A stretch of DNA of 41,852 nucleotides from a virus: positions 1 through 41,852 of IMG/VR virus record IMGVR_UViG_3300002518_000018. One strand, given 5' to 3'. The notes under the pieces were generated by a model that worked only from the letters and a program-made list of their open reading frames with translations, was not told where the DNA came from and searched no databases. The translations under genes were made by a program, and so were the position numbers. Positions 90 through 41,852 of this stretch are shown one piece after another; the first letter of the stretch is position 1; each line of letters opens with the position of its first letter.

Positions 90-260
90 CTCACTAGAAG
101 CCCCACAGGCCACTCACAGACCCCCACACAGCCCAAAACCAAACCCCCGTGCGTCTCCGCGTCAGGCAGCGGTTCCATTCCGCCTTGGGCCGCATGGGAA
201 CCCAGACCCCCTAAAATGCACCCCCTCCCCCCAAAGAAGGGGGCCACCCGAAACCACCCG

Positions 261-315
261 CCCTTGGACCACCCTTGGACCACCCTTGGACCACCCTTGG
301 ACCACCCTTGGACCG
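261..315. repeat. Five tandem 11-bp units (iteron-like)
   Basis: The unit CCCTTGGACCA is repeated head to tail at 261-271, 272-282, 283-293, 294-304 and 305-315, with only the last base of the fifth copy changed. An 11-bp spacing is one helical turn, so bound proteins would line up on one face of the DNA, as with iterons. The array sits where the plus strand changes from C-rich to G-rich. An origin or partition role is inference only. Confidence 0.85.
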
Positions 316-470
316 CAATAGGGCTGGCCTTTGAGCGAAGGGGGGCTTCATCAGAGCCGAGCGACCGGTATCGGCTTGGTGGCTTGGTGGCTTGGTGGTA
401 GGTGAGGGGGTGGCCTGCAATAGGCTTGGCCTTTGGAGAGAGGGGGTGCTTATACAGTGCGGACGACCGG
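315..470. repeat. 54-bp imperfect direct repeat around 8-bp triplet
   Basis: Segments 315-368 and 417-470 are equal in length (54 bp) and align without gaps. Both begin GCAATAGG, share GGCCTTTG, continue with a G-run and GCTT, and end GACCGG. Between them lie three perfect 8-bp copies of GGCTTGGT at 373-380, 381-388 and 389-396. No coding sequence explains the conservation. Confidence 0.75.
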
Positions 471-1412: not shown

Positions 1413-2354
1413 ATGAAAGAGAGATTGGACGCAAAGACGAAGCAAGCAATGATGGAGATGCACTTGTCGGTGTCGCGACGCAAACATCTCCCGACATGGG
1501 GTGAACTCGTGATGGTGCGAGACATGGAGTTGGAGTTGCAGTTGTCGTCGGTGGTGGCTCCGGTGTCGCATGGGCCTCGGAGGTTCGAGGTTGCGAGGGT
1601 GGGGTCAGCGGGGGCGTCGTTATTGGGGAAGGAGAGCGTTCCGATCATCTGTGGTCCGTATCCGGGATACGAGAGCAGAGCTTCGTGGGATCGAGGGAGA
1701 AAACTAGCGGTGTCGTCGCCGCGAGCGATGGAGGCGTTGCGGTCCTTGAAAGAGTCTGGGGTGGATACGCTCTTTCGCTTGCAAGAGGATGGAGAGAAGA
1801 CGTGGGAGAATCACGGGTTTTTGTCGTATGCCGCAGCATGGCAAATGTTGCACGGGAGCAAGGCGGGTGACATTCGCGTGGGTGGTTCGAACGTGCATGC
1901 GCCGATCAAAGACATGAGCGTTCCGGACGTCAGGACGATGAATATGCTCTTGGATGTGATGGACGCGACGTTGGCGTTGGGGATGGGTATCTATGTGCAC
2001 TGTTGGGGAGGGCACGGTCGAACAGGAACGGTGATGTGTTGTTGGTTGCAACGACACGCGGGTCCGTGGTTGTGGGAGTGGATGGCCGGGTGGTGTGGTG
2101 TGGAGGCGAACGACATTCAGGACATGGGTCAAGAATCGATCGTGCATGGTGTGTTGGGGTATTGGGAGTGGTGTCGGTCGGTGGATGAGTACATGGCGAA
2201 CGCGGAGTCGCCGCAGACCAAACGCCAGATGGACATGGTGAGGTCTTGGATGAGCCATGATCGGTCGGTGGTTCGCGACGCGGATGCAGCGGTTGGGTTG
2301 GATGCGTTGAAAGAGTCGTATGAGTTGTGTGTCCCTGGTAAGGCAGTGTCGTGA
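1413..2354 (+). CDS. Dual-specificity / tyrosine phosphatase-like protein
   Basis: The 313-residue protein contains the cysteine phosphatase signature H-C-x5-R-T-G: His196, Cys197, Arg203, Thr204, Gly205, read from VHCWGGHGRTG. Cys197 would be the nucleophile and Arg203 the phosphate-binding residue. About 30 residues upstream, the segment HAPIKDMSVPD fits the loop that supplies the general-acid Asp in dual-specificity phosphatases. The roughly 90-residue N-terminal part matches nothing I know. Such enzymes remove phosphate from Tyr/Ser/Thr or from nucleotides, RNA 5' ends or inositides, and the substrate here is unknown. AGGAG lies upstream of the chosen ATG. The stop overlaps the next start (GTGA), so the next gene is translationally coupled. 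Leucine codon TTG is unusually frequent, in line with the G/T-rich plus strand in this region. Confidence 0.8.
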   Translation: MKERLDAKTKQAMMEMHLSVSRRKHLPTWGELVMVRDMELELQLSSVVAPVSHGPRRFEVARVGSAGASLLGKESVPIICGPYPGYESRASWDRGRKLAVSSPRAMEALRSLKESGVDTLFRLQEDGEKTWENHGFLSYAAAWQMLHGSKAGDIRVGGSNVHAPIKDMSVPDVRTMNMLLDVMDATLALGMGIYVHCWGGHGRTGTVMCCWLQRHAGPWLWEWMAGWCGVEANDIQDMGQESIVHGVLGYWEWCRSVDEYMANAESPQTKRQMDMVRSWMSHDRSVVRDADAAVGLDALKESYELCVPGKAVS

Positions 2355-2713
2355 GTAAGTTATCGCGATTGGTGAGGCGGTTGGATTGGATCGTCCGGAG
2401 GGCTGAGTTGGAGAATACTCCGCTTCAAAGTTGGACGATCTTCGGGAATCCGGGCGGTGCGATCAAGGGAGAAGCTTTTCACAGGTACACGCTCCGAATG
2501 GAGCGTGTGAGAACCCGGACATCGGGAATCGCATTAAAGATCGTGGAGCCGAATCCAAAGACAATAGAGAGGTGCGAGCTTGACGTGGGTCGGGCTATGC
2601 TTCTGCGTGTTTTGTTGGAGCCGACTCGCATGGTGCTGCGTGTGTTGGGCAAGTATCCCGGCCTGTCATTGGATGCCATGATGAGGAACCGAAAGGCTTT
2701 ATCGGATTGGTGA
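2351..2713 (+). CDS. Hypothetical protein, C-terminal SDW tag
   Basis: This 120-residue protein is not recognised. It begins at GTG, overlapping the stop of the phosphatase-like gene by 4 bp (GTGA), which implies translational coupling. It is basic (many Arg) and looks largely alpha/beta with a helical end. It finishes RNRKALSDW followed directly by the stop, one of seven proteins in this window carrying the R-(R/K/N)-x(n)-S-(D/E)-W motif near the C-terminus. It closes the first plus-strand transcription unit; the next gene starts behind a new promoter at 2741-2785. Confidence 0.75.
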   Translation: MSKLSRLVRRLDWIVRRAELENTPLQSWTIFGNPGGAIKGEAFHRYTLRMERVRTRTSGIALKIVEPNPKTIERCELDVGRAMLLRVLLEPTRMVLRVLGKYPGLSLDAMMRNRKALSDW

Positions 2714-2740
2714 TGCTGCGATCCGACAACAGCACATGAA

Positions 2741-2755
2741 GTTCAGTGACTGAAC
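2741..2755. promoter_or_regulatory. 15-bp palindromic operator, copy 1
   Basis: GTTCAGTGACTGAAC is a perfect odd palindrome, extended to 19 bp at 2739-2757. It lies just upstream of the TATAAT at 2775 and covers the expected -35 position, so a bound protein would block or replace -35 contacts. It is followed by a run of six T, so weak terminator activity cannot be excluded. Confidence 0.75.
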
Positions 2756-2796
2756 TTTTTTGGTACCTGCCCGATATAATATAATCTGCCCGATAC
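2751..2796 (+). promoter_or_regulatory. Promoter with doubled TATAAT and flanking direct repeat
   Basis: TATAAT occurs at 2775-2780 and again, overlapping by one base, at 2780-2785. A weak -35 (TGAACT, 2751-2756) lies 18 bp upstream, inside the palindrome. Direct repeats of CTGCCCGATA at 2768-2777 and 2787-2796 flank the -10 and look like a second operator. It would drive the gene at 2826 and those behind it. Confidence 0.6.
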
Positions 2797-2825
2797 GATG
2801 ACTTGAAAGAGGAGAGAATCCAGAC

Positions 2826-3149
2826 ATGAGCAAAACAATCACAGAGTTCTACTTGTCGGAGACCCGAACACAAAGCATGTCGATGCCCCCGGATTCGCAG
2901 ATTTTGTGTGTAGTTGGCTACACTAATCCGATGACGGAAACCAGCGAAGTGCACTTGTTCGCCGAGCACCTGCGTAAACACGAGAGTGAACCTGAACTGT
3001 GGGAGACACGTGTCTTTCACATGTTTTCGGCCTTTGAGGACATCCCCGAAGAGTTAATCTTGGATTATATAGACTCTATCCAACTAGGGGGCACGGTAAT
3101 GCACACAGTTCGTGTGAAGCACGTATACGAAGAGATAATCATTACTTGA
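2826..3149 (+). CDS. Hypothetical small acidic protein
   Basis: This unrecognised protein of 107 residues is acidic and without obvious motif. An AGGAG lies rather far upstream of the ATG (about 11 nt). It is the first gene after the promoter at 2751-2796 and sits 19 bp before the next gene, so the two are probably cotranscribed. The protein looks compact alpha/beta (FAEHLRKH, FSAFEDIPEELILDYIDS) and ends in a short hydrophobic strand. There is no S-D/E-W ending and no membrane segment. No function is assigned. Confidence 0.65.
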   Translation: MSKTITEFYLSETRTQSMSMPPDSQILCVVGYTNPMTETSEVHLFAEHLRKHESEPELWETRVFHMFSAFEDIPEELILDYIDSIQLGGTVMHTVRVKHVYEEIIIT

Positions 3150-3168
3150 TACACCAGGAGCCGTTGAG

Positions 3169-3858
3169 ATGGGAATCACTAGAGACAAGTCGACGTTTGA
3201 GAGTTGGATTCGCTACTATGCCGAGGACAAGGTCGAGCATAGGGCTTTGGCATCTCTGTTGGGGGATAGAGAGAGCTACCTGCTAGAAGACTATGGACCA
3301 CCGTTGCAGGGCATGCGAGAGTTCTCCGGGTTGGGTCCGGGTCGAATGAAGAATATGCTCTTGGATCGCCTGCATCTGATCAGCCAAACGGCTAGCTTGG
3401 ACAGTTACAAGCAGGGGTTTATGGGGTCGGCTGCGGGCATACCGTGTACGGTGATTGCACGGAGTCCGTGTTCCATGTGGCTGCGGGTTGTCTTCCTAGA
3501 GGGGGCGGCAGCGTGGGTGAACAACGAAGCGGTGCGTTCTTGGTCGAAGTTCGAAACCCGGTACAGCACACCGGATATGCGTCGGGTGCGTGACCTGCCG
3601 GTGAGTTTGCGGGGATACAAGACGCCACGCAAGACGACGGCTCTTGATTGGGAGACCGAGGAGGTTTGTCGATTGGGCGATGCCGTGGATGCAGGGCTCT
3701 CTCAGATACAAGCACTGTTGCCGGAGAGCTTGCCGGTGGATTGGTCTTTTGTTCGGCTGCGGATGCACCGGCAGATTCGCTTGGTGGCCAAGTTGAAGAT
3801 TGTATCCGACTCGGCAGAGCTTGGGGATTCCGATGGAGCAGGTGATGCATCGGATTGA
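3169..3858 (+). CDS. Hypothetical protein, 229 aa
   Basis: This protein is not recognised. AGGAG with 8-nt spacing precedes the ATG. The first 60 residues look helical (ESWIRYYAEDKVEHRALASLL), the middle is mixed, and the end is an acidic Ser/Asp/Gly tail (residues about 212-229) that is probably disordered. The tail overlaps the start of the next gene by 14 bp, which suggests coupled translation. The composition remains G/T-rich on the plus strand. It is part of the small operon 2826-4252. Confidence 0.65.
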   Translation: MGITRDKSTFESWIRYYAEDKVEHRALASLLGDRESYLLEDYGPPLQGMREFSGLGPGRMKNMLLDRLHLISQTASLDSYKQGFMGSAAGIPCTVIARSPCSMWLRVVFLEGAAAWVNNEAVRSWSKFETRYSTPDMRRVRDLPVSLRGYKTPRKTTALDWETEEVCRLGDAVDAGLSQIQALLPESLPVDWSFVRLRMHRQIRLVAKLKIVSDSAELGDSDGAGDASD

Positions 3859-4252
3859 GTGTGTCCTGGATAACGCATGGGTGACCAAGTTTCGGCCTCA
3901 GTGGGTGGCACCGGATGGTTCACGTGGTCCGGCACCGTTCGGCCCGGATGCTTTTGGTGCTGAAGTCTCAGAGGTGGGCATGATTGCCATGCCAGGCATT
4001 GGGGGAACGTTTTCGATCTGGTCGCCGGATGAGCGTCGGTATGTGGTCTTCGCACACTACAGCGGCCCGAGTGACCCGGTGTCGTTGGACGACAGCTTCG
4101 TGGTCGAGTTCCGGCCTGACAAGAAGACACAGAGCAAGCTGCGTCGCATGGTGCGTACCTTTTTGTTATGGGACGCGAAGAATCAGAAAAAGGAAGAGAA
4201 AGAGAGACGAGACCGAGCCGCGAGAAATCGTCAGTTTACCTATTTGTGGTGA
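3845..4252 (+). CDS. Hypothetical protein, C-terminal tag-like RNRx5W
   Basis: This 135-residue protein is not recognised. Two starts are possible. I prefer ATG 3845 because GGAG lies 6 nt upstream; ATG 3833 would add four residues. Both overlap the previous gene. The centre looks like a beta-rich domain (GTFSIWSPDERRYVVFAHYSG, with EFRP). The C-terminus is a charged helix (KNQKKEEKERRDRAARNRQ) ending in FTYLW. Its end RNRQFTYLW has the same spacing from RNR to terminal Trp as the RNRKALSDW of the protein ending at 2713, so it may be a diverged form of the shared tag. The first of three 9-bp tandem repeats covers its stop codon. Confidence 0.6.
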   Translation: MHRIECVLDNAWVTKFRPQWVAPDGSRGPAPFGPDAFGAEVSEVGMIAMPGIGGTFSIWSPDERRYVVFAHYSGPSDPVSLDDSFVVEFRPDKKTQSKLRRMVRTFLLWDAKNQKKEEKERRDRAARNRQFTYLW

Positions 4253-4270
4253 TTGTGGTGATTGTGGTGA
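4244..4270. repeat. Three perfect 9-bp tandem repeats
   Basis: TTGTGGTGA occurs at 4244-4252, 4253-4261 and 4262-4270. The first copy includes the TGA stop of the gene ending at 4252. The repeats open an intergenic region dense in palindromes. Confidence 0.85.
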
Positions 4271-4448
4271 AGTGCTTCGCGACGCGAAAAAGTGCCACTT
4301 AAGTGCTCCGCCGATGTTCAAATAGCGAACATGTCAGTCTATATTTACTTGGTTCCAGATTGGACAAGGCATGCGGCGCCGCTCGCGACAGTCTTTAAAA
4401 ACCACAGATCTGTGGAGGCGATTACGTTGCTGCCAAACGGAGAGAAAA
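4253..4448. promoter_or_regulatory. Palindrome-dense intergenic region, candidate control region or origin
   Basis: In 196 bp this region contains, after the 9-bp repeats, TTCGCGACGCGAA (4276-4288), CACTTAAGTG (4296-4305), the operator-like ATGTTCAAATAGCGAACAT (4314-4332) and CCACAGATCTGTGG (4402-4415). An open frame beginning at ATG 4331 crosses into the next gene, but it has no ribosome binding site and unusual composition, so I do not call it. The plus strand is clearly G-rich before this point and C-rich further right, so a replication-related role is possible. Confidence 0.5.
4314..4332. promoter_or_regulatory. Diverged copy of the palindromic operator
   Basis: ATGTTCAAATAGCGAACAT keeps the outer arms ATGTTC/GAACAT and the GTTC-N7-GAAC spacing of the perfect copy at 6065-6083, but the inner AGTNACT is lost. 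It lies upstream of the gene at 4449. It may be a weaker site for the same regulator, or a coincidence. Confidence 0.4.
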
Positions 4449-6011
4449 ATGACGAAGAAAAGAAAGATGCAGACAAAGGGCGATCGGAGACGAGAGAGAG
4501 AGGCGACTCGATCTAAGAGCCCGGCTCGCACCAAGAAGGGCAATATCCCCAAGGGAGACCCCACGAAAGTGTGGTTTGTTCGCTTTGGCGGATCGGACTT
4601 GGGACCATACGACGTGGAGGAGGTTCGAGAGGGCTTGGAGCAAGCTTTGTTTCTGGAAGACTCTGTGGCCATACACCGGCACAGTTTCAAGCGTCAGTCG
4701 GTCGAGAAGCTGCTTCGAGAGGCGGACGAGTTGGCCGAGAAGATCGCCCTTGGCGAGATCACAGAAGAGGAATCTATCGCCGAAGAGATCGACAGCGAAT
4801 ACGACGGCTTGGAAGATCTGCCTGAGTTCGATGACAATGGCGACCGAGAGTGGCCTCGTGCTTCGTCGTCGGGGTCGCGTTCTTCGAGTAGCGATGGTGG
4901 CGTCAATGGTGGTCGCACGATCCCGGAGGACGAAAGGTGGCACCGATCGGGTGGTCGCACCGGAGCCAACTCGCACAGTTCCCCCGGCGGAAGCCGCAGT
5001 CGATCGTCATTCGGAGGAGGTCGTCAGGGCGGGTACAGTACTCGACGGTCGGACATGTCTACTGATCCGGTGGACCCGTGGAGTTCCATGACGCCTCCGG
5101 GTGTCAATCAAGGACGCTCCGGTGGAAAGAAGTCTGGACCACCTCGACAGACCTCCCTGTTTGGATTCCCTGCGTCCCAACCTGCCAGAGGGAGACAGCC
5201 CTCTACGCCGCGAGCAGCCGACGCCACCCAGAGTCCTTTCCGGCAAACACAAGCCGCTGCCTCGATGTACGACAGAGTTCAGAACGGCGAGATCTCGTGG
5301 TCGGAGTACATCGAAGCTCGACGGTATGAGGAAGAGGGCCTCGCGGAGCACTTGGAAGAGTTCCCCTTGTCTTTGCGAGAGAGAGACCTCCGGCTCTCCG
5401 AAGAGAGCGGACTCAATGACGCCCTCCAAGACATCGACGAATCCGCTCGGTTGGTCATGGGCGTCATTCACCGCATCTCATTGAATCGCAGGCGTCGCCT
5501 CACCGAAGAGTTGGATAAAGAGCGAAAAGCCTATCTCCGCGAATATCACGATGAGAGAGATTGGAACGAGTACTTCTCCCCGGAGTGGGATGGGTTATAC
5601 GGAATCTGCTCGGTGCCGGGTCCGATCGGAGAACGCATCGAGACCGGACCTGTTCGCTTTGGCGACGATTGGCCGGGGGTGTTTTTCCGAGGCGACGACG
5701 CGATGGCTTTGGGTGTCGATGTGTCCACGGTGTGTACTGCCCTTGAGAACCTGCCTGCCGAGCACAACACTGCCGAAGTCCAATTGGCAGTCCGGTCGCT
5801 AATGGGGATGGTGTCTATCGTGGAAGACCACGTGGCCATTCCGGCGACCGAAAAGGTCTCTCGTGTGCCCGGAACACCTCCTGTAGCCGATCCCGTGACG
5901 GACACGGTCGATCTTGCAGTGGACACTGACAGCACCTCCACCACGATCTCCGCAGAAGACGCCCATGTCGGGGGAAAGCCCCACAAGACCGGGAGTTCGG
6001 GGAAGGTCTAA
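4449..6011 (+). CDS. Large protein with GYF-like domain and disordered S/G/R-rich centre
   Basis: This is a 520-residue protein. The ATG at 4449 follows CGGAGAG; an earlier in-frame start at 4371 has no ribosome binding site. Residues 1-35 are very basic. Residues about 40-90 (VWFVRFGGSDLGPYDVEEV and on) match the pattern of the GYF_2/DUF4339 type: an aromatic strand, G-G, G-P-Y, then a helix. This is a recognition by pattern, not by search. Residues about 90-135 are acidic. Residues about 140-270 are Ser/Gly/Arg/Pro-rich and almost certainly disordered. A helical, charged segment follows (about 275-375), then a mixed domain and a Thr/Asp-rich tail. GYF-type domains bind proline-rich peptides, so it may be a scaffold or adaptor. 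It lacks the S-D/E-W ending. Confidence 0.75.
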   Translation: MTKKRKMQTKGDRRREREATRSKSPARTKKGNIPKGDPTKVWFVRFGGSDLGPYDVEEVREGLEQALFLEDSVAIHRHSFKRQSVEKLLREADELAEKIALGEITEEESIAEEIDSEYDGLEDLPEFDDNGDREWPRASSSGSRSSSSDGGVNGGRTIPEDERWHRSGGRTGANSHSSPGGSRSRSSFGGGRQGGYSTRRSDMSTDPVDPWSSMTPPGVNQGRSGGKKSGPPRQTSLFGFPASQPARGRQPSTPRAADATQSPFRQTQAAASMYDRVQNGEISWSEYIEARRYEEEGLAEHLEEFPLSLRERDLRLSEESGLNDALQDIDESARLVMGVIHRISLNRRRRLTEELDKERKAYLREYHDERDWNEYFSPEWDGLYGICSVPGPIGERIETGPVRFGDDWPGVFFRGDDAMALGVDVSTVCTALENLPAEHNTAEVQLAVRSLMGMVSIVEDHVAIPATEKVSRVPGTPPVADPVTDTVDLAVDTDSTSTTISAEDAHVGGKPHKTGSSGKV

Positions 6012-6066
6012 TCCAGATATTTATCCGCATCGCCCTTGGCATATTCAAGTAAGACACGAAATCGAT

Positions 6067-6081
6067 GTTCAGTCACTGAAC
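6067..6081. promoter_or_regulatory. 15-bp palindromic operator, copy 2
   Basis: GTTCAGTCACTGAAC is a perfect palindrome, 19 bp at 6065-6083. It ends 20 bp before the ATG at 6102, immediately upstream of the AGGAGA ribosome binding site. Confidence 0.75.
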
Positions 6082-6101
6082 ATTTCCAGGAGAAACGACA
6101 A

Positions 6102-6485
6102 ATGAACTTATATCGACTGCGATCGCCTCTCCTCGACACAGAGGAGGCTCGAAACCACAACATCGAAGAGTTCCATGTAAGCAAAGGAAGTGCCACTCGT
6201 GCGGCTCGTACACTGTTGGTCGTGCACACCCCGGACGACCCCAAAAAATCCGAAAAAGATGCCGAAGAGGGTTGGGCCATGTTCTGCTATGTGGAGCTTG
6301 TCTTGCTCCTTGGCTCCGGATCGCGGATAAAACAAGTCGTCGATCTTTTGAACGATGGCATCGACTTAGACCGATACACAGAGACTCTGCTCAAGTACTC
6401 CCGGAACCCTCGACAGAAACGCCTCAACCGAGACTTATGCAACGAAATCGGTCATGCGGAAAGGAAGATCCGCGAAAGAATTTGA
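6102..6485 (+). CDS. Hypothetical protein, 127 aa
   Basis: This protein is not recognised. I use ATG 6102, just after AGGAGA; an in-frame ATG at 6036 would place the operator palindrome inside the coding region. The protein is mostly helical, with a hydrophobic stretch (MFCYVELVLLLGSG, about residues 60-75) followed by a charged helical half rich in Arg. The stretch is short and followed by charged residues, so it is more likely a buried helix than a membrane span. It has its own operator copy in the leader and so is probably regulated separately from the gene before it. Confidence 0.65.
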   Translation: MNLYRLRSPLLDTEEARNHNIEEFHVSKGSATRAARTLLVVHTPDDPKKSEKDAEEGWAMFCYVELVLLLGSGSRIKQVVDLLNDGIDLDRYTETLLKYSRNPRQKRLNRDLCNEIGHAERKIRERI

Positions 6486-6524
6486 ACAGAAGCCTCACGG
6501 CCTGCGACCGAAGAGCTTCTGTTC
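6484..6524 (+). other. 10-bp perfect inverted repeat
   Basis: GAACAGAAGC (6484-6493) and GCTTCTGTTC (6515-6524) are exact reverse complements separated by 21 nt. The hairpin overlaps the stop of the gene ending at 6485. There is no U-tract, so it is not a standard intrinsic terminator; mRNA stabilisation or a protein site are possible. Confidence 0.55.
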
Positions 6525-6607
6525 ACTCCACCTCCTCCGCGAGCAACCCGACCAAAGAAACTTTCTCCTGCCGAGATAGAGAGAGATCGCCGACGAAGGA
6601 GCGTGTG

Positions 6608-6673
6608 GTGAGAGACACAGACAAGAACACAGACAAGAAGTTCACGGGCAGCACAAAACCGGACTCAAAGTAA
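6608..6673 (+). CDS. Possible 21-residue micro-ORF
   Basis: GTG 6608 follows AAGGAG with 6-nt spacing and opens a 21-codon frame, very rich in Asp, Lys and Thr, ending 22 bp before the next gene. It is the only candidate in the 210-bp gap 6486-6695. Support is limited to the ribosome binding site and position. Confidence 0.2.
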   Translation: MRDTDKNTDKKFTGSTKPDSK

Positions 6674-6695
6674 GACTGTCAAAACAGGATGGATC

Positions 6696-7688
6696 ATGTT
6701 CTTCGAAGCCTTTGTCAACGTACATTGCGGGTGCTGTAGTGGCGAGTTGGGTCAAGTTGGAGTGAATCTGCCTCCCGCACACACGGAGACCTTGCGAGAG
6801 CTTATCAGTGCGTACACGTGGATGTGCTCCGACTGTAGAGCGGTTGCTCCTGGTGTCACGGCTCCGGCTCTGATAGACGAAGCCCGGCTGTTGGACCCAA
6901 AAGTCATCGAGGAGGTCCGAGAGGCATGGGAGTCTTGGAAGTCCGATGGCATGCTCGTGTCAACTGGGAAACTCTCTCCTTTGGAGGCGTCTTACGCAAA
7001 AGATCCGGGTGACATGTTCCTGCTTCCTCTTCCCGGCTCGACACGATCAGAGAAAGAGGTCTATCGCCGCAAGGCCCACAGGGATATTCATCACTCGAAT
7101 ATTGTGATCACCTCCCTCCCGACAGGATGCAGCCTCGCAGAGCAAGAAGATAAATTCAAAGCAGCACTCCGAAGCTTGTACATTGCAACGGATAGAGAGA
7201 TCGAATACCTGATCGCCAACATCATGGCACGCGGGTGGTCTTTCTTGCCTCAAACTCACCGGATCAAGTTGGTGGTTCTCGACGACTACATCAGGTTGCG
7301 ACGGAGCGGTGGAGAGGGCGGAGAACCTGTGAATTTGTCTTTGGGCATGTACATCGCATCGAGCTTGCTGACCGGAGGAGTCTCAACAGCCTTTCGTATA
7401 AATCCGGACATTGACATTCATAGCATTCGGTTCTTGGCACATGACCCGTTCTTTTATCTGCGTCCACTGCCCCACAGTGACTCGACCGTGTGGTTAGAGA
7501 AGTACGTGCCCGACAGCAAGATCAAAGAAGAGCGACTAGCGGTCTTAGGTAGCGTCATGGGCTCCCCAGAGGAGCCCGCAGAGACATTCACAGAGACATT
7601 GCCGTCGAAGCCAGAGGTCAAGAAAGCAACGGTCTTGGAGGCAGCAGAGGCCCGCCGGAAGACCAATAGCGATTGGAGCATGTCATGA
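6696..7688 (+). CDS. Zinc-ribbon protein with C-terminal SDW tag
   Basis: This 330-residue protein starts at ATG 6696 behind AGGA. Near the N-terminus are Cys11-x2-Cys14 and Cys44-x2-Cys47 (from HCGCC and CSDC), the usual layout of a zinc ribbon. The rest is unrecognised and looks mainly helical. Residues near 290-315 are Pro/Glu/Thr-rich, followed by a helix, LEAAEARRK. It ends ARRKTNSDWSMS: the shared motif R-R-x(n)-S-D-W with three further residues. These extra residues are encoded where the gene overlaps the next start (ATGTCATGA), so they may be a by-product of gene packing. It is the first of six consecutive tagged proteins. Confidence 0.7.
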   Translation: MFFEAFVNVHCGCCSGELGQVGVNLPPAHTETLRELISAYTWMCSDCRAVAPGVTAPALIDEARLLDPKVIEEVREAWESWKSDGMLVSTGKLSPLEASYAKDPGDMFLLPLPGSTRSEKEVYRRKAHRDIHHSNIVITSLPTGCSLAEQEDKFKAALRSLYIATDREIEYLIANIMARGWSFLPQTHRIKLVVLDDYIRLRRSGGEGGEPVNLSLGMYIASSLLTGGVSTAFRINPDIDIHSIRFLAHDPFFYLRPLPHSDSTVWLEKYVPDSKIKEERLAVLGSVMGSPEEPAETFTETLPSKPEVKKATVLEAAEARRKTNSDWSMS

Positions 7689-8437
7689 TAAGCACAGCGG
7701 ATGTAGCTGTCACCCCCGATCCATACGCCGAGTGGTACGACAGCAAGCTAACGCCACCACCTGGATTGGTTGCACTTGAAGCTCCCTACTTGCGCCACAA
7801 CACCAAGGCGAAAGATGCTCTCGAAGCGGCGACAGAGGACATTTTTATTCGCCACAGACACGTTTCCTTGACAAAGAAAGCGGTTCTGTGCATACGGGGT
7901 CTCCGGAGAAGTCACAGTGACCCATATCGAGACCCGGTCGCACACATGGTGGGAATATGCAACTACGGGACTCCCGAAGTGCTGCAAGACACCGCTTCCG
8001 CCGAGTTACGAAACATATTCAACATGGAACCCAGACACGCGGGAAGTCTTCGGCCATACCCAGAAGAGACCTCTTGGGACACGATCCCATTTCCTTTGGA
8101 CCATCACAGCCTGACAAATGCGTTTCTTATCAGATTCGCAAAGCAGAGCCAAGCACACACCTTATTGGGGTACGCACAGATACTATTGGCCCCGTATCGA
8201 ATGGGGATCGCGATGGTCCCTTTAAGAGCAGACGGATTTTCGGAGACCCGGACGCTATCTCCATGGGAGTTTGTTTCTGTGGAGTTGAGTCACCTGTGGG
8301 AGTATGCTGTCCACCAAGGATTGGCGAGCGATGAATTCGTGGATAGGTCCATCGCTAGCTCTTGGAAGTCGGGATCTGTGACGAATCTTGCTCTGGCAGC
8401 AGCCGCTGCCGAACGCCGGTCCCGATCCGAGTGGTGA
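7685..8437 (+). CDS. Hypothetical protein, C-terminal SEW tag
   Basis: This 250-residue protein is not recognised. I use ATG 7685, which overlaps the previous stop as ATGA; an earlier in-frame GTG/ATG at 7673 is less likely. It appears alpha/beta, Pro-rich near the N-terminus (TPPPGLVALEAPYL). A last helix (SVTNLALAAAAAERRSRSEW) carries the tag, with Trp the final residue. The alanine-rich helix leading directly into the tag resembles that of the protein ending at 12086 (LEAARREESDW). Confidence 0.7.
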   Translation: MISTADVAVTPDPYAEWYDSKLTPPPGLVALEAPYLRHNTKAKDALEAATEDIFIRHRHVSLTKKAVLCIRGLRRSHSDPYRDPVAHMVGICNYGTPEVLQDTASAELRNIFNMEPRHAGSLRPYPEETSWDTIPFPLDHHSLTNAFLIRFAKQSQAHTLLGYAQILLAPYRMGIAMVPLRADGFSETRTLSPWEFVSVELSHLWEYAVHQGLASDEFVDRSIASSWKSGSVTNLALAAAAAERRSRSEW

Positions 8438-8492
8438 GAGCCTGGCCCCCCAAGCCTCCCAAGATCCGAATGCCACAAGCACAGGTAGAGCC

Positions 8493-9746
8493 ATGACCGC
8501 ACGAGAACTATTGTTGATATTGATCAATAGCGAGAAACGACAAGAGTTCGTGGAGGCTCTTCTGTCCGAAAGGTGGATCAGCCTCGACGAGACAATCATT
8601 ATCGGCGACGAATCCTTTCTAGGAATAAGCTCGGTTGGCGAATCCGTGTCTTTGCTGCACACAATCCACAGGACGATCCGGCGTCGCATCGCGGAGGAGT
8701 CCGGGGTTGTAGAAAGAGACGTTCCCGACAGCGAGATAGACGCTCTCTTTACGCCAAAGATGTTGGCCGATATAAGCTCTATTGTCGATCGGGTTTTACT
8801 CGAAAGAGCCCTCCATGAGGAAGAGGAGGAGACTCCCGGTTCAGTCACTGAACCAACGAGAACTCTGGTTGCGGGGTCTTTGTCCACGGGACCAGGGCTG
8901 TCCATCATGGGAGCAGGCACCGATTCAAGAATAGAAACAGGATTCGCCGGAGCATCGGAAGACGGGCTGAGTCTTCCGAGAACCATGGGCTTTGGGAAAA
9001 AGCCATCTCCAAGGCTATCGGACATGATGAGCTTAGGAGAGTACGACTATGCCCGAACGACCAGAGGTTGGGGTCCGGGATCTCTACGCAGGAAAGCGTG
9101 TCAATTATTCAGCACGTTGGGAATTCCCACACGCGGGGATTGGATCTGGAGCTTGACACCCTTTGGTGACGGTTGCGTCTCTCCCCCGGCAGGAGATACA
9201 GAATCACATTGTTGGGGTTGGAAAGAGTACGGCATCAATCATCCACCCGAATCCAAAGACCGCACCTTCCCCAACCAACATTATCAAATCGTCGGATTCA
9301 GGGAAGTGTCTTTCGACATCGCCTCAAGATCCACATGGCAACGAGAGATCTTGGGCCACATCACAGGATTACCAGAGATTATCTTGGATAAAATAATAGG
9401 GGGATTTCCGGGAGTGATCCCACACCATGCTATCACTCGCGAGGCGATCCCCGCTCCGGAGTCCTTGGGGATCTCGCAGACGTGGTGGACGGTCATGCAC
9501 TTGGTGGCCGGAGGATTCTGTGTTGCGCATGTCAGCGATGGAAGCAGCATCGATGTTCTGTATGACATTTGGAGCCACCCCACAGACATAGAGGAAGACA
9601 CTGTTATGCAACGAGGATCGTCGCACGAACTCGTCGAGCTACTGACAAAAGCCATAACTCGCCCGGAGCTAGAGAGCCATGAAAAAGAAAGAAGAGAGAG
9701 GAGCGAGTGGGCATATCTTGTTGGGGAAGACTCCACCGACAGTTGA
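8493..9746 (+). CDS. Hypothetical protein with internal SEW tag and intragenic operator
   Basis: This is an unrecognised 417-residue protein. The upstream frame is open but has no start with a ribosome binding site, so ATG 8493 (after AGGTAGAG) is chosen. Residues 1-40 are helical, about 110-170 are low-complexity, and the C-terminal half has many Trp and looks like a folded domain. Near the end, KERRERSEW matches the shared tag but is followed by 13 more residues, the only case with a long extension. A perfect copy of the 15-bp palindrome (8839-8853) lies within the gene and encodes SVTEP. The next possible reading frame overlaps its 3' end. Confidence 0.65.
   Translation: MTARELLLILINSEKRQEFVEALLSERWISLDETIIIGDESFLGISSVGESVSLLHTIHRTIRRRIAEESGVVERDVPDSEIDALFTPKMLADISSIVDRVLLERALHEEEEETPGSVTEPTRTLVAGSLSTGPGLSIMGAGTDSRIETGFAGASEDGLSLPRTMGFGKKPSPRLSDMMSLGEYDYARTTRGWGPGSLRRKACQLFSTLGIPTRGDWIWSLTPFGDGCVSPPAGDTESHCWGWKEYGINHPPESKDRTFPNQHYQIVGFREVSFDIASRSTWQREILGHITGLPEIILDKIIGGFPGVIPHHAITREAIPAPESLGISQTWWTVMHLVAGGFCVAHVSDGSSIDVLYDIWSHPTDIEEDTVMQRGSSHELVELLTKAITRPELESHEKERRERSEWAYLVGEDSTDS
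8839..8853. promoter_or_regulatory. 15-bp palindromic operator, copy 3, inside a gene
   Basis: GTTCAGTCACTGAAC, perfect and extended to 17 bp (8838-8854), lies inside the 8493-9746 gene. It could control an internal promoter or act as a roadblock, or be constrained only as protein code. Confidence 0.5.
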
Positions 9747-9870
9747 GACCGACCGAGACAGGTTGGCCGACATCGCAGCCCGACGCCGAGAGGCACTTAT
9801 GCCAATTGACACACTCCGGCATCTCCACATACCCCCCACACACCACATTATTCACACAGGAGTAGACGAT

Positions 9871-10947
9871 ATGCCCAGAACACCCAAAGATTTTCATACT
9901 CCCTTTCCCTATGAGCCCGAAGACCACTCTGACTTCTATGATCGCGGCGAGCATGAGACGGAAGTCTCCGAAGCACTAGAGGCAGTTTTGACAGAACTCA
10001 CTCCTGAAATGAGGGATCTGTCCGAGGCACTGAAAGCAGCTACCGAGCCATTCATGCCTCCCATCGCAACAGGAGCAGGGAGCATCGGAGAAGCACTCTC
10101 CAAGGGCACAGGTGCCAAGACAGAGCAGTACCGCGTGAGTGCCAACGAGCTTATCTTGGCACTGAAAAAGGGAACACCGGAGCGGGACGCTCTTATTCGC
10201 CTGTTGTCCGCGACAGACCCTAATGCCACCGTCATCGTCGCAGAAGTCGAGACCGCTCCCGACTTGGCGACCAAGGCTTCCTTGTCTCCTCTTCTCACAA
10301 CGAGGAGACACCTGGTCGAGAAGGACACAGAAGATAGCGAAGGTGAATCGACGGAGCCCTCTCCCGAAAAGAAGTCCGAGTTGGTCAAAGCAGCGGAGCG
10401 ATCGATCAAGGCTATTAAGATAGAGGGAGAGGAGGAGCCCATGTTTCGTGCTTCCCTGCATGGGGGCTCCAAGGGCTCTGCTTTGGAGTTTCACCCTATT
10501 GGGATTGCACTTGGCGAACTACCAGACCGGATTCGTTCGAGAGTTGTCTCGGTAGCACGAGGCGAGGGTATCCCTGTTCCAAACGTGAGGTACATGCTGC
10601 ACGACATCGAAAGAGGGTTCAGCAGAGAAACGGCTATCGCGAAGCTTTCAAGCCTGTATGGTGGAGGCATGGATCATTACGCCCGTGCTCTCCCCGCTCC
10701 GCTCCCCCACCTGTGTCATTCTAGTGCCGTTGTTTTCGCGTTTGACTCTCACCGGAAGATCCAACGGGATGAGATCATACAGGAGTATATCGAAAAACTC
10801 CGTGAGGCGGGTTGGGTTATTCAGGACATGGCGGCACCTGAGAGCGTCGAGGAGAGCGAAACAGAAGCCGAGGAGGCACCTCTATCGATCGACAAACTCA
10901 GGTCGGCAGAGAGCCGGAGAGGAGGCAGCAGTGAGTGGTCGAGGTAA
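9871..10947 (+). CDS. Hypothetical acidic protein, C-terminal SEW tag
   Basis: This 358-residue protein is not recognised. ATG 9871 has AGGAG with good spacing. The frame is open back to 9679 and its composition there is protein-like (RLADIAARRREA), so a longer form starting at 9679 and overlapping the previous gene by 68 nt cannot be excluded. The protein is helical and acidic, with Ser/Glu/Pro-rich linkers near residues 145-190 and 325-345, and ends ESRRGGSSEWSR. The tag is followed by two residues, encoded within the overlap with the next gene. The repeated features of this run (helices, low-complexity linker, basic RR, S-E-W) suggest similar handling of all these proteins. Confidence 0.65.
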   Translation: MPRTPKDFHTPFPYEPEDHSDFYDRGEHETEVSEALEAVLTELTPEMRDLSEALKAATEPFMPPIATGAGSIGEALSKGTGAKTEQYRVSANELILALKKGTPERDALIRLLSATDPNATVIVAEVETAPDLATKASLSPLLTTRRHLVEKDTEDSEGESTEPSPEKKSELVKAAERSIKAIKIEGEEEPMFRASLHGGSKGSALEFHPIGIALGELPDRIRSRVVSVARGEGIPVPNVRYMLHDIERGFSRETAIAKLSSLYGGGMDHYARALPAPLPHLCHSSAVVFAFDSHRKIQRDEIIQEYIEKLREAGWVIQDMAAPESVEESETEAEEAPLSIDKLRSAESRRGGSSEWSR

Positions 10948-11674
10948 GGAGTCACCCACTCCGCTCCCTATCGCCTCGCTATCACCCGCTGACGTTTTTA
11001 TCAGTGAGGTTGTGAAAGAGATGCGAAAGGAGGCATCCGCTCGCGATCCCGAACCTGTACCAGAGCCGGGGATTCCTGGTTGGGCTCACAGAGCTATCGA
11101 GAGAATCGACGTGGAACCTACTGCGGATGTTGCAGATTACGCCAGACACATGTTCTCCGGTTACAAGAAAAGAGCACCCTCCGACGTCAGGCGATACCCC
11201 CTCTTCAGAGACCCTCTCAGAAAACCCACGAAGACCCTGTTGGCGAAAGAGCCGTGGGCGTGGACTCCCAACCCACACGGTATCTTGACACCAAGCAATC
11301 CATCAGATGCTCACGCGACGATATTCGAACAATGGTGGAGCAGGAATGAGTTGTTCTTCGAGAAGCGCATCACAGAGAAGGCACGCGAATTAACAGAAGC
11401 TGTTCTCGCAGAGATCGCCAGACGAGCGGACATTTTACTAGAAGAGCTTACGGAGCACGTCCGAGCACAACTCAAAGCTCTGGAAGAGCGGGTCGCCGCT
11501 ATCACCGAGACCGTCGAAGGTGAAGTCCTCCGAGAAGAGTTGAAAGCTGCGAAGGACCGCTTGCTAGATTGTGCTAATAAGATAAGAGAAGACTTGGAGA
11601 GAACCTTAAACGAGAAGTCTCACGATTTCTTGGGAAGCCTTAGTGAGTCCCGCAAGTCATCTTCGGATTGGTAG
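10931..11674 (+). CDS. Coiled-coil protein, C-terminal SDW tag
   Basis: This 247-residue protein starts at GTG 10931, with GGAGG 5 nt upstream, inside the end of the previous gene (17-bp overlap). The open frame upstream to 10658 is a shadow. Residues about 140-235 form a long charged helix with heptad-like spacing (KARELTEAVLAEIARRADILL and beyond), so it is probably a coiled coil. The N-terminal part is Pro-rich. It ends SESRKSSSDW with Trp the last residue. It is probably an elongated oligomer; function unknown. Confidence 0.7.
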   Translation: MSGRGKESPTPLPIASLSPADVFISEVVKEMRKEASARDPEPVPEPGIPGWAHRAIERIDVEPTADVADYARHMFSGYKKRAPSDVRRYPLFRDPLRKPTKTLLAKEPWAWTPNPHGILTPSNPSDAHATIFEQWWSRNELFFEKRITEKARELTEAVLAEIARRADILLEELTEHVRAQLKALEERVAAITETVEGEVLREELKAAKDRLLDCANKIREDLERTLNEKSHDFLGSLSESRKSSSDW

Positions 11675-11678
11675 GGCA

Positions 11679-12086
11679 ATGAGCAAAAAAGGAAAAGGTG
11701 GAGCCAGGGGAGGCGGGACGCACAGACGTCACCACGGCAAGGGTCGAGACCCTAGATACTTCCAAGATCGATCTGGGGGCAAATACGGGGGCAAGAAAAA
11801 GAAACGCGAGAAGGTAACACTCACTCCACCTCTGCCACCCATGGCATCATCGACCACCGCAAGCAGAAGACTCGCAACTTGGTGTTATGATCTCTCTGCA
11901 CCTGAAAGTGATGCAACCACTGATACAGACTTCTCCATAATTGTCAGGGGAGCAAGCTTGGATTGGGACGAAACGGCAACAACCCACTTTACTCCCCCGA
12001 TTATTGTGACGGTGGACAATGCAGAAAAGCCCCCACCGGAATTGATCCAGCTGGAGGCTGCTCGTAGGGAAGAGAGTGATTGGTAG
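11679..12086 (+). CDS. Basic protein with Gly/Lys/Arg N-terminus, C-terminal SDW tag
   Basis: This 135-residue protein starts at ATG 11679, behind GGTAGGG, 4 bp after the previous stop. Residues 1-45 are extremely basic and glycine-rich (KGKGGARGGG and KYGGKKKKREK), fitting a nucleic-acid-binding tail. The rest contains beta-strand-like segments and ends LEAARREESDW with Trp the final residue. It closes the tagged run and converges on the small minus-strand gene at 12094. Confidence 0.7.
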   Translation: MSKKGKGGARGGGTHRRHHGKGRDPRYFQDRSGGKYGGKKKKREKVTLTPPLPPMASSTTASRRLATWCYDLSAPESDATTDTDFSIIVRGASLDWDETATTHFTPPIIVTVDNAEKPPPELIQLEAARREESDW

Positions 12087-12240: not shown

Positions 12241-12300
12241 TTTCTCCGTCTTGGAATGTTCGCTTGTAATGGCTTTCTCCCCGTTCTATTTTGAGGTGCA
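12241..12300 (-). repeat. Dispersed leader element, copy A
   Basis: On the minus strand this is a 43-bp core (12300 to 12258, beginning TGCACCTCAAAATAGAAC), identical to copy B, followed by ATTCC and GACGGAGAAA as in copy C. It ends just before the ribosome binding site of the 46-residue gene. It carries no sigma-70 boxes I can recognise and may be a phage-specific promoter or a leader RNA. Confidence 0.85.
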
Positions 12301-12905: not shown

Positions 12906-12981
12906 TTCTCCGACATGTGGAATATTCGGGGCTTTTCGGTTCGCTTGTAATGGCTTTCTCCCCGTTCTATTTTGAGGTGCA
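12906..12981 (-). repeat. Dispersed leader element, copy B
   Basis: The 43-bp core (12981 to 12939 on the minus strand) is identical to copy A. After it comes an insertion of about 14 bp before an ATTCC and CGGAGAAA tail. It lies directly upstream of the two-span membrane protein gene. No palindrome copy is present upstream, unlike elements A and C. Confidence 0.85.
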
Positions 12982-17200: not shown

Positions 17201-17458
17201 CTGACTGACATCTCCCGTCTCAGCGTTGATCATGCGACCACCCCAAGTCCCGACGACTCCATTGAAGATCGTCACCATACCCTTGTTGGCGTTAATCTGA
17301 TTCGCCGGGACTTCTGCCCGAAAGCCCTGGTACACACCATTGCCCAAGACCAAGTCGATCAGGTTGTCACGCAACCCCACTGGGTGCGTCTCTGTCGCGT
17401 GAGTGAAGTCAGGCAGGTCCACTCTCTCGGCGTTATGGAATTTCGGTGCTCGTGGCAT
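14294..17458 (-). CDS. Tail fibre or tailspike with right-handed beta-helix
   Basis: This 1054-residue protein starts at ATG 17458, behind GGGG; an upstream in-frame ATG (17464) and TTG (17473) are less suited. Residues about 1-500 are an attachment part with mixed beta segments. From about 510 the pattern changes to short repeated strand-turn units typical of a right-handed beta-helix: GLYDFALLGG, DHILFDLTNCSEMTFRDMTIHG, CSNIRFENCKF, FEFHGCVFELSGQG, FNKFTDNTIHGFG. These run to about residue 960 before a small C-terminal domain. Such proteins are phage tailspikes, often polysaccharide-degrading, but I cannot identify catalytic residues. It is the most host-distal part of the tail block and the leading receptor-binding candidate. 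Confidence 0.75.
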   Translation of the reverse strand: MPRAPKFHNAERVDLPDFTHATETHPVGLRDNLIDLVLGNGVYQGFRAEVPANQINANKGMVTIFNGVVGTWGGRMINAETGDVSQSFPLRGSSTEFWIEVEFMWIEDSFDGRTVYDSTKANVSPLPNGQEVDIARMSTRLTPGWRIKHPIRQNPAGSRSTPGYAPQGFSSDDPNVMPLMVLRTNSQGQIVFGNPNSDSTGNDLTTISLAGGSRQVIPVIGYGEHETRQVGGKTVRIGRKATDQRPRVFERLEAPMRYGDTGEIIGDTESDHWARDLKSVYDHLATQMARVVLGLETQTPTENGVSVAGAEYYEGVLIDVDPDWRWVKVTSMSVETLVNPDIMPDDWANWTFQIRSGPWNGFYAQVHRQEKKDGSGHYKLWLHQQSYRPDWWPLPNAAADTPAIRLVNGRRRNWAALPMPNSGNRGLNALDDEVVGARNDIFTQLALPSLRDALSSQKSYDMTFSPVRAQIGGGGVTAPVFADVVVDNTDVATMQSAATAWQNMVLNWNSPQQGGRMLFRKGLYDFALLGGVPTHTVFTTAGQGSSGWLFQGEGMDTTTLKMTTAATSQDHILFDLTNCSEMTFRDMTIHGKGRVFNASGCSNIRFENCKFVAEYDDVTSARPALDLGAMTGFEFHGCVFELSGQGVKGTTASEMVVKDCRFSEVSGNTVTEVSGYWWNTGVVSDSRFEDCLFTGPASLVGMRFQSNITTSVLRNVQVRCEVDAASVEGLIAFEAGFLKSRMEGCLLGEAGGSASPRGISGGGSMADSTISDTLIEAVSGVGILLGSLLDSDLSGVRIKCSGTRPAGSVGLSAGQMDRSTISAMTVLSFETGILCVGTSEYNNISSSIIREVEFGIDFHVLGSHSTGCQFNKFTDNTIHGFGIASGVGIRIESSFSNTCAGNNIYNFQYGITSNGDSSFGSQGIVLTGNRCVTTESGYLVEYTIDSVVTGNSAAVATTSGFSFSNSVNIVCSGNHVEGVATNYPYWLGGISNPNWAENVRGGMLSAKAGGTWIMDATVNNNSVLAGDLGNGNMVIFYNTWDGVFPAAKIDDLIL

Positions 17459-17475
17459 AATCATTATCCCCAAAA

Positions 17476-17490
17476 GTTTAGTAACTGAAC
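17476..17490. promoter_or_regulatory. 15-bp palindromic operator, copy 6
   Basis: GTTTAGTAACTGAAC lies 17 bp upstream of ATG 17458, between the tailspike gene and the preceding fibre gene. Confidence 0.7.
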
Positions 17491-17506
17491 CTGTGTGTGA
17501 ATCAAA

Positions 17507-39246: not shown

Positions 39247-41852
39247 GCCGAGAGTTGCGGCAATTGGAACGCCATGTCAACCAAGGCGAAGTTGAGTGCT
39301 GCTTTCGGGAAGCACCCGAACTTGATCCGCACAATGTCACCCGAAATCTTCACGGACAAGCTGTGGTACGCCAAGATCGGCTTACCATTGATCTCGCTGT
39401 CCACTATGATCCCCTCCGCCCTCTTCTCCGCCAAGAAGGTGGTAATCTCTCCTCGAATCGAACCGGGGGAAGCACGAGCCTTGAAGCGAACACCTTCGGC
39501 TCGCGACCCCGTACCCTCCCCGATGAACATATCCTCAATCAAAATTTGAATACCGCGTGTCAGATCATTCCGGATCTCCCACACGTTGATGTCCGTCCGA
39601 GCCAAGTTGTCGCTCGACACGTGCGTGGTGTAGCCGCGATTGATACGGAAAGAGCCTCGCAGGGGCTTGACGTACAGCAAGCCACCCAACGATGCCTTTC
39701 GAGCTTGTACGCGGTTTGTCGGCTCCCAATCACCCAAGGGTGAGCGGATATTGTCTGCCGAGATGTGCTTGAGCGAGAAGCCCTCACCCAAGTCACTGCC
39801 CAACTGCATCGCCGCCGTCTTGCAACCCAACGCCCACACCGGCATCCACTCCGGAATACCCCGCGTCGTGGTCTCCAAGATCTCCTGGCCACACAACGAC
39901 ATGCTCTCTTGGTTGATCTTCTTGACCCACTCCAAAAGCCCTGTCGTCGTCGCTGTGCTCTCCAAGGGAGCCGAGAGACCAAAGTACCCGTTGCGGTAGA
40001 CACGCTCCAACTCGCACAAGTCCAAGTGGGCCTTAAAGTCGGTCAGCAGCGTCTCCACATCGGTCGTGGCCCACCCGCGTCTCGGCGTCGAGGCACAGGG
40101 AATATCCACCCGGATCGTGTCGTTCGTCCGCAGTTGTTCGAACCCGTGTGCCCACGAAATGGGATAGAACGGATCTGCCGTGTCGCTCGCCTTGCGAACG
40201 ATCGAGTCACCTGACAGCCCATTATAGTACTGTTGGTGCACCGTCTGTGTGTCTGGCTCGGCTCCGCCAAACGAAGAGGCATACCCTGCCGAGCCACCGT
40301 CGAAGCCACCTGTCGCACGAACCGCCGTGAAGCGGCCATGGTTCTGGTTCAGCCAACCCACGACCTTCTGGACGTTGTCACGCACGATGCCGTACTTGCT
40401 GCGTTGCCCGTACGTCGCACCCGGACCATCCCCGAATGCCAGGTTCGCTTGCCAATGGTCCGCAAGCTGCCCGAAGTCGAACCGCTCCGGGTTGATGTTC
40501 GGAGCACGACCGTTCCCGTACCGCGACAACACCCAAATACTCTCGTTCAAGTGATCCCGCAACGATTGGTACGTGTTGTACTTGGTCAGGTCCACCGTTA
40601 TCAGAGTCTGTGTCCACGCAGGAGACGACTTCGAGTCTTTCAGCACAATCGCCAAAGACTCCGCCTTCCCCGACTTGCCTGTGACCTGCAACTCGACATC
40701 GGTCAAGGTCATAACCTTGTATTGGAGACCAGATCCTGGCACAAAGCCCAACCCCGACATCAGCGGATTGGGGAGCTTGTCCGTCAAGGTCGCGACCGTT
40801 GACGTGTGGCTGGCCAACTTATAGATATTGCCGATCGCTTCGACGTGAGAAGCGTACAGGGCATCTGTGCTCTTCAAGATGGGAGTGCCGCCGTCTCGAA
40901 CCGCAGTAGCTCCCGACAGCGTATCACCGTCGGCGATGGTTCCCACGATGGTGCCCAAGATCAACTCGCCCGTGTCGGTCTCTTCGATGAACTTCCCGGT
41001 GCCGCCACCTGTCGCTGTCACGGTCTCGCCATACGTGAACTGGACCCATCCGCCCGCAGCCGCCGGAGAATGATTCGGGACAGCGTCAACGGTCACGAAG
41101 TTATTCACGTCCGGAGGAATCAGGTCGAGCTTCACACCGCTGCCAAACTGCCCTGTCGGCTGTGCGAAGTGGACCTCGACACCTTCCACCTTCACAAAGG
41201 TCGCCAACTTACCCGTCGGATCTTTCAGCACCGACCCTGCCGGGATCGTTCCCGTGACTGCCGCAACACACGAAACCGTCGCGTTGTAGTAGCCGCCGTT
41301 CGCCGTTCGGTCTGTACCCGTGACAGCAATCCATCTGTTTTGGTGGTCATTAGCCACCCCAAGAGACCCACCATTCAGAGCCAGACCCGTCGAAGCCGAC
41401 TGTGTGTGATCGACACCTGAACGTGCCGTCTTCGTCGTTCCTTCGATCCCAACAGGTTGAGGCCGAATCCAATCCGTCGGGGTCACCGAACCCCCTGTGG
41501 GGTCAACGTGAATCTCAAACGCCGGGTCATTCGTGCCGCCTACCGGGACCGCCGTGACCTCCTCGTTATAATTGTAGCGGTGAAGGAACTTGTATCCCTT
41601 GTCCTGGTCGTTTGTATCTTCGGGGCGAAAATACCCATCGTTCAGGTTCCCGCCCGGCCCCCACTCGCTGGAGAGCAACTGGATCGACGGCACCAAGAGC
41701 TTCACTTTCGTCACCACGCCCGATGCAAACGGCGTGATGTTCCACGTCTGATCCAAGCGGAGCTTTAAGCGTTGGCGCCCCGCCACAGGAGATGCCGCCG
41801 AAGACAGCACTTGTCGCTGCTGTCCCTTCCCCCACCCTTGGGAGATCTCCAC
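39243..41852 (-). CDS. Tail sheath candidate, partial at the window end
   Basis: At least 869 residues, with the start beyond position 41852; the GTG at 41852 is probably internal. The C-terminal about 200 residues look like a sheath end: KIS/PLGDWEPT, VWEIRNDLTRGIQILIEDMFIGEG, then a strand-rich AEGIIVDSEINGKPI part and a final hydrophobic strand pair. The N-terminal and middle parts are beta-rich with Gly/Thr and Asp. It is larger than typical sheaths (about 400-700 residues), so insertions or another large virion protein remain possible. It converges with the plus-strand islet. Confidence 0.55.
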   Translation of the reverse strand: MEISQGWGKGQQRQVLSSAASPVAGRQRLKLRLDQTWNITPFASGVVTKVKLLVPSIQLLSSEWGPGGNLNDGYFRPEDTNDQDKGYKFLHRYNYNEEVTAVPVGGTNDPAFEIHVDPTGGSVTPTDWIRPQPVGIEGTTKTARSGVDHTQSASTGLALNGGSLGVANDHQNRWIAVTGTDRTANGGYYNATVSCVAAVTGTIPAGSVLKDPTGKLATFVKVEGVEVHFAQPTGQFGSGVKLDLIPPDVNNFVTVDAVPNHSPAAAGGWVQFTYGETVTATGGGTGKFIEETDTGELILGTIVGTIADGDTLSGATAVRDGGTPILKSTDALYASHVEAIGNIYKLASHTSTVATLTDKLPNPLMSGLGFVPGSGLQYKVMTLTDVELQVTGKSGKAESLAIVLKDSKSSPAWTQTLITVDLTKYNTYQSLRDHLNESIWVLSRYGNGRAPNINPERFDFGQLADHWQANLAFGDGPGATYGQRSKYGIVRDNVQKVVGWLNQNHGRFTAVRATGGFDGGSAGYASSFGGAEPDTQTVHQQYYNGLSGDSIVRKASDTADPFYPISWAHGFEQLRTNDTIRVDIPCASTPRRGWATTDVETLLTDFKAHLDLCELERVYRNGYFGLSAPLESTATTTGLLEWVKKINQESMSLCGQEILETTTRGIPEWMPVWALGCKTAAMQLGSDLGEGFSLKHISADNIRSPLGDWEPTNRVQARKASLGGLLYVKPLRGSFRINRGYTTHVSSDNLARTDINVWEIRNDLTRGIQILIEDMFIGEGTGSRAEGVRFKARASPGSIRGEITTFLAEKRAEGIIVDSEINGKPILAYHSLSVKISGDIVRIKFGCFPKAALNFALVDMAFQLPQLSA

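Follow-up and report, generated by a model that had tools for sequence, protein, structure and literature searches.

The closest described relative of the system considered here is CbbQO, in which the MoxR ATPase CbbQ is paired with CbbO, an adaptor with VWA and MIDAS domains. Its Rubisco substrates, ~30% identical to one another, share a C-terminal motif (H/KR) needed for activation, and both the MIDAS and an acidic substrate residue linked to it are required (PMC5437159, PMC4660213). A similar pair, CobS and CobT (together CobST), belongs to the CobN-CobS-CobT cobaltochelatase; viral CobST, widespread in tailed viruses, is filed as a cobalamin auxiliary metabolic gene and has been proposed, though its function was not shown, to boost cobalamin with borrowed host CobN (PMC8651126). 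Rea1/Mdn1 (midasin) and NorQ/NorD are related AAA+ systems in which a MIDAS domain grips a partner and the machine acts on a larger complex; their ligands, however, are domains (ubiquitin-like, UBL) or one enzyme and not a portable peptide tag. Short terminal signals are also used elsewhere: ssrA and other C-terminal degrons are read by AAA+ machines such as ClpXP, and encapsulin cargo peptides and the capsid targeting sequence of T4 (the latter N-terminal) are portable signals placed on several proteins. Here we describe a C-terminal tag, consensus (R/K)(R/K)x(1-3)S(D/E)W, on unrelated proteins of a bacteriophage represented by the virus record IMGVR_UViG_3300002518_000018 (41,852 bp, analysed whole and called the window), and argue that it may be a docking signal read by CobST.

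The phage pair resembles CbbQO in being a MoxR-type ATPase beside a VWA/MIDAS protein, and its members match the models AAA_5, CobT and CobT_C. CbbQO, however, acts on one kind of substrate, Rubisco, through a basic motif with no aromatic tag, whereas 12 unrelated proteins are tagged in this one phage and the tag varies from phage to phage. Unlike ssrA, the phage tag is encoded in each gene and has an aromatic end, and no protease was seen; unlike the encapsulin and T4 signals, it showed no link to capsid genes. No phage tag of comparable kind was described in the open-access literature searched, and the phage-wide, phage-specific tag system appears to be new.

A sequence-only reading of the window had pointed to seven proteins with such tails. 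All seven are present and in frame, with their stops where it placed them (Table 1); one count changed, the protein that stops at 9746 having 11 and not 13 residues after the tryptophan. None of the tagged window proteins matched a Pfam or PHROG family. Two repeated elements of the window, the palindrome GTTCAGTNACTGAAC (12 mostly intergenic sites against 0.09 expected by chance) and a promoter-like 27-mer, served as queries that led to IMGVR_UViG_3300002518_000001 (104,653 bp; the joining contig), which shares the 27-mer. Because its overlap with the window is short (75 bp, exact) we only infer that the two make up one genome of ~146 kb, an arrangement supported by the shared repeat elements and by five more SDW proteins in the joining contig, which bring the tagged set to 12.

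The joint proteome comprises 135 proteins, in which the 12 tagged open reading frames were set by hand. In it, S[DE]W forms the exact C-terminus of nine proteins against 0.03 expected (at most 2 in 1000 shuffles) and falls in the final 20 residues of 12, where 0.5 were expected (at most 4 in 1000 shuffles). All 12 matches to (R/K)(R/K)x1-3 S(D/E)W are terminal, ≤11 residues from the C-terminus, and none is internal. A blind scan, which uses no preset motif, shuffles columns and removes paralogues, picked [KR]xxSxW with a log10 p of -8.9, the best of 12 column shuffles reaching -4.5; the motif is not a product of chance. An anchored expectation-maximization motif finder was too permissive, since untagged controls scored high, and was replaced by the column-shuffle scan.

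The likeness might be a by-product of DNA, arising where a gene's end overlaps the Shine-Dalgarno sequence and start of the next, or might come from a common ancestor. The tag codons do overlap the next gene's ribosome site at 7688 and 10947, in the latter case a Shine-Dalgarno-like AGGAGG and the GTG start at 10931. However, the codons of the shared residues differ between genes (TCG, AGC, TCC and AGT for serine, six ways for arginine, and variation in Asp/Glu too), so what the genes share is a peptide, not a repeated DNA sequence; several tags, moreover, precede non-coding DNA, and five lie in distant genes of the joining contig. Compared with each other, the tagged proteins showed no similarity and are not paralogues, so their shared end is not inherited; nor had they detectable homologues among ten related contigs. 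Since the codons differ and the proteins are not paralogous, selection acts on the peptide. Codon variation, the blind scan and non-paralogy led us to reject both explanations, which are now very improbable. The peptide-level signal is near certain to be genuine, and there is strong support for reading it as a true docking or targeting peptide shared by unrelated proteins.

Of the destinations suggested earlier (virion, phage-made compartment, common partner or protease), a common partner is favoured. The candidate lies outside the window, at 17379-20784 of the joining contig, where a CobS-like ATPase is paired with a CobT-like VWA/MIDAS protein; its placement in the same phage genome as the window's tags rests on the 75-bp overlap. 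Tagged genes stand directly upstream of cobS in the joining contig, in two relatives (G010 and G014) and in two further CobT loci (L262 and L265).

Searches with window proteins found no homologues (one tagged protein against INPHARED and IMG/VR, a single tail-sheath query against IMG/VR, a baseplate query against genome contigs), so relatives were reached through the palindrome and the promoter-like motif and then through the capsid protein, by which the phage is SPO1-like (40% to known ones). Capsid-protein alignment yielded 79 further contigs, several of which were read whole. None of these carries RRxxSDW; most have either CobST with a diverged tag (-AxWNF, -EW/-YW) or neither. In G014, five unrelated proteins end AxWNF (log10 p -7.1 in the blind scan), and in G010 three adjacent genes end GEW, KEW and SYW. 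Gene-content comparison found homologues of CobS and CobT in three relatives (G014, G010 and G005) but in none of G012, G013 and G011, which have no tag. Mycobacteriophage Catdawg, in which no CobT was found, has an untagged protein, gp95, distantly homologous to a tagged protein of G014. The window protein that stops at 4252, earlier put forward as an eighth member, lacks S-D/E-W; its end fits only the looser basic-x-W form of the relatives' tags, and it is a possible variant member.

Unrelated phages were then picked by CobT alone and put through the same scan. Their tags took other forms, -YGxW, -FGx(W/F)A, -FGxF and -W(A/G)(S/T)W: nickie has ten proteins with xxGx[FWY][AG] (log10 p -8.8), BUCTxx99 ten with YGx[FWY] (-11.1), ANB28 nine tagged proteins (-10.1), V1VFA-S six with [FWY]GxF (-9.3) and RHEph10 five tagged proteins (-8.6), while SSU5 and Cyrano have two proteins each with WATW/WGSW-type ends. 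Overall, tags occurred in 10 of 18 CobST genomes and in none of ten without CobST (G012, G013, G011, PHB04, ST4, Touem01, Yen8, EalM132, SJC03 and Catdawg; Fisher p 0.004 with every tag counted, or 0.03 by a strict test). Tag-like C-termini thus exist in other phages, in phage-specific forms and in association with CobST.

A survey of CobT loci agrees. CobT alone was used to fetch 79 metagenomic IMG/VR loci besides the joining contig (two of them in G005 and G010). The 48 loci left after dereplication contain 23 neighbouring genes with [FYW][GA]x[WF] ends, where the internal frequency of this motif predicts 0.74 (p 1.6e-26). They are spread over 17 loci, 4-12 genes upstream of cobST, and are not all independent events, because many belong to one WGR-like family. 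In L262, which has the closest CobT (47%), the two genes before cobS end RKRQSSW and RKNKSDW, the window's own tag, and in L265 genes before cobS end RRREW, RKPEW and KAKSFW.

CobST is linked to the tag by several partly independent lines. On co-occurrence, gene order and precedent, we consider it probable, at about 0.6, that CobST uses the tag as a C-terminal docking signal for gripping accessory proteins encoded by the phage itself. Several observations weigh against this. Eight of the 18 CobST genomes (G005, ICP2, CRP-810, BS162P1, syn9, HCTV-2, HHTV-2 and G021) have no significant tag, so CobST can exist without one; G005 offers a weak candidate, below significance. The Fisher p values are uncorrected for kinship, and genomes within a lineage do not count as independent. 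A replication module is common to nickie, BUCTxx99, the Rhizobium phages and SSU5, and in them another of its members could be the tag reader; the tags of different lineages may also have separate origins. The AlphaFold 2 (AF2) model of CobT, used for matching the VWA fold only, is of low confidence (predicted local distance difference test, pLDDT, 58).

Another possibility is that the tag docks to a sliding clamp, single-stranded-DNA-binding protein (SSB) or polymerase, with CobST a mere neighbour in the replication module. Tagged genes accompany those for ligase, primase, DnaE, DnaQ, exonuclease and WGR/BRCT/Gam-like proteins, and a tag with an aromatic C-terminus would suit the pockets that receive C-terminal clamp-binding peptides or SSB tails. 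Yet the joining-contig proteins tested included no recognisable polymerase or clamp, and SbcC-, UvsX- and helicase-like genes are present in untagged phages too. Moreover, among the genes of the joining contig, the window and G014, only cobS and cobT were found by phmmer in all ten CobST phages compared and in none of nine controls, a profile that is partly so by construction because CobT was the criterion by which seven of the ten, the named phages, were selected. We regard replisome docking as unlikely.

The tagged proteins fall into ~60 families, mostly singletons. Where a domain can be recognised, it is one that touches DNA (WGR, ligase-tail-like BRCT, Gam-like end protection), and neighbouring genes encode exonuclease, DnaQ, DnaE and ligase. 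Pfam E values for WGR were 5e-6 in L294, 0.013 in L269 and L262 and 0.063 in the joining contig, one being above the curated cut-off; a profile comparison of the two WGR-like families was not significant, so these tagged proteins may share descent, as the Pfam hits suggest. Homologues that change their tag were found only for proteins of the other phages, where the form follows the phage: RRKKAWI in G014 against KVRSYW in G010, GWATW in SSU5 against SWGSW in Cyrano, and FGGF in V1VFA-S against FGRF in RHEph10. Nickie carries a tagged Gam-like protein whose homologues in two phages without CobST, Touem01 and ST4, have no tag.

The same swapping speaks against a signal for loading cargo into the virion or a phage-made compartment, roles that had been proposed from the window and for which we found no support. 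C-terminal cargo peptides are known elsewhere, and tail genes, on the opposite strand, adjoin the tagged block. However, annotations and family searches gave no structural annotation or convincing structural family match for any tagged protein; in the named phages their genes are found alongside early accessory genes and genes of replication and repair; and where relatives resemble one another in capsid, it is CobST, and not the capsid protein, that the tag goes with. We rate cargo loading as quite improbable.

The CobT of the joining contig matches Pfam CobT_C and CobT, and a DxSGSM-type motif is present in all CobTs compared. The best PDB fold match of its AF2 model is the NorQ-NorD VWA, MDN1-MIDAS/UBL being matched as well; CobT structures also exist in the PDB. 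Near its N-terminus it has an HExxH (residues 69-73) followed by a conserved E (~99-104), an arrangement found in most CobTs compared, and the segment may be a metallopeptidase remnant. The tag might accordingly be a degron by which CobST, with this HExxH as peptidase, or a host protease destroys spent early proteins, an idea that suits an AAA+ partner and the early accessory look of the tagged proteins. But nickie, BUCTxx99 and ANB28, which are among the most heavily tagged phages, have lost HExxH, and three window proteins continue beyond the tag, so this explanation too has a low probability. No CobN was noticed in general scans of the joining-contig proteins, though no search was aimed at it. 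An N-terminal zinc-finger-like Cys/His segment occurs in the CobS of nickie, BUCTxx99, V1VFA-S, RHEph10, G010 and the joining contig and is absent from G014; it resembles Ros/MucR fingers and may bind DNA or the tag.

With CobST as reader, at least 12 unrelated accessory proteins of the phage, often DNA-related, would bear an address tag, and CobS (a MoxR-type AAA+ ATPase) and CobT (a VWA/MIDAS adaptor) would read it and not make cobalamin. The candidate substrates have a C-terminal motif in common and are found together with CobST, though not in all CobST genomes, and the company of tagged DNA-related proteins suggests a job other than cobaltochelatase. Speculatively, CobT could hold the tag with its Asp/Glu or its terminal carboxylate lying at the MIDAS metal or close by and its aromatic residue fitted into a pocket; CobS, hydrolysing ATP, could then pull on, remodel or remove the tagged protein from its complex, probably on DNA. 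Proteolysis would not be a required part, because HExxH is missing in nickie and BUCTxx99. Tag and reader would drift together into lineage-specific versions (SDW, AxWNF, EW, YGxW, FGxF and WATW/WGSW).

Table 1. Features of the window, the joining contig and one relative (aa, amino acids). Starts of ORFans come from an in-house gene caller and are partly uncertain; ends are firm.
Feature	Position	Strand	Remarks
ORFan, 120 aa, GTG start	window 2351..2713	+	tag RNRKALSDW, exact C-terminus (2684-2710)
ORFan, 330 aa, zinc-ribbon-like N-terminus	window 6696..7688	+	tag ARRKTNSDW (7650-7676), then SMS
ORFan, ~250 aa, ATG 7685	window 7685..8437	+	tag ERRSRSEW, exact C-terminus (8411-8434)
ORFan, ~417 aa, ATG 8493	window 8493..9746	+	tag ERRERSEW (9687-9710), then 11 residues
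ORFan, ~358 aa, ATG 9871 or 9679	window 9871..10947	+	tag SRRGGSSEW (10912-10938), then SR
ORFan, 247 aa, coiled coil	window 10931..11674	+	tag SRKSSSDW, exact C-terminus (11648-11671)
ORFan, ~135 aa, Gly/Lys-rich, ATG 11679	window 11679..12086	+	tag ARREESDW, exact C-terminus (12060-12083)
Possible variant member	window 3845..4252	+	tail ARNRQFTYLW; resembles relatives' tags
Palindrome GTTCAGTNACTGAAC	window 2741, 6067, 8839, 12326, 14270, 17476, 21923, 24941, 27343, 29573, 35391, 37952
Exact 75-bp overlap with end of IMGVR_UViG_3300002518_000001	window 41778..41852	-	sequence match of ends
Five further SDW ORFans	joining contig 2185-2778; ends 9067, 16754, 17286, 34215	(-) for 2185-2778
CobS-like AAA+	joining contig 17379-18647
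CobT-like VWA protein	joining contig 18844-20784
Candidate-tag ORFans of G005	127612, 129621, 130576, 117891, 111941 (-)		possible diverged tag, below significance
Identical 43-bp repeat	window 12258-12300, 12939-12981		third core copy 37995-38021 (-)
Phosphatase, DSP/PTPase-like	window 1413-2354		E 3e-17
11-bp tandem repeat	window 247-334

Some further features were seen. The palindrome looks like an operator or a terminator-linked element, and the 43-bp repeat and its core are promoter-like and phage-specific; both elements occur in the joining contig too, whose genes include those for DnaB, primase, UvsX- and SbcCD-like proteins, terminase and portal. The phosphatase has its best match in a polymorphic-toxin-linked family (Tc-R-P). 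Before it, positions 1-1300 of the window hold little convincing coding and the tandem repeat, and may be a genome end or junction. In G005 (IMGVR_UViG_3300025133_000029), the five unrelated ORFans end [WF]Rxx[LW]x[DE]x[LIV]F or similar.

It is an even bet that many tailed phages have private addressing, with a set of unrelated proteins of each phage bearing its specific aromatic C-terminal tag, read by a co-evolving CobST machine that extracts or remodels them, probably on DNA, and is not a B12 enzyme. If CobST docking were proved, the system could also count as a far-reaching variant of MoxR/VWA substrate recognition. Phage proteomes consist mostly of functionless ORFans, and a portable tag that ties dozens of them to one machine would give a handle on all and a simple way to find more such proteins from sequence. 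The finding also suggests a new role, open to testing, for viral CobST in place of cobalamin metabolism, and, if tag and reader pairs are phage-specific, orthogonal tag/AAA+ pairs would be usable as tools.

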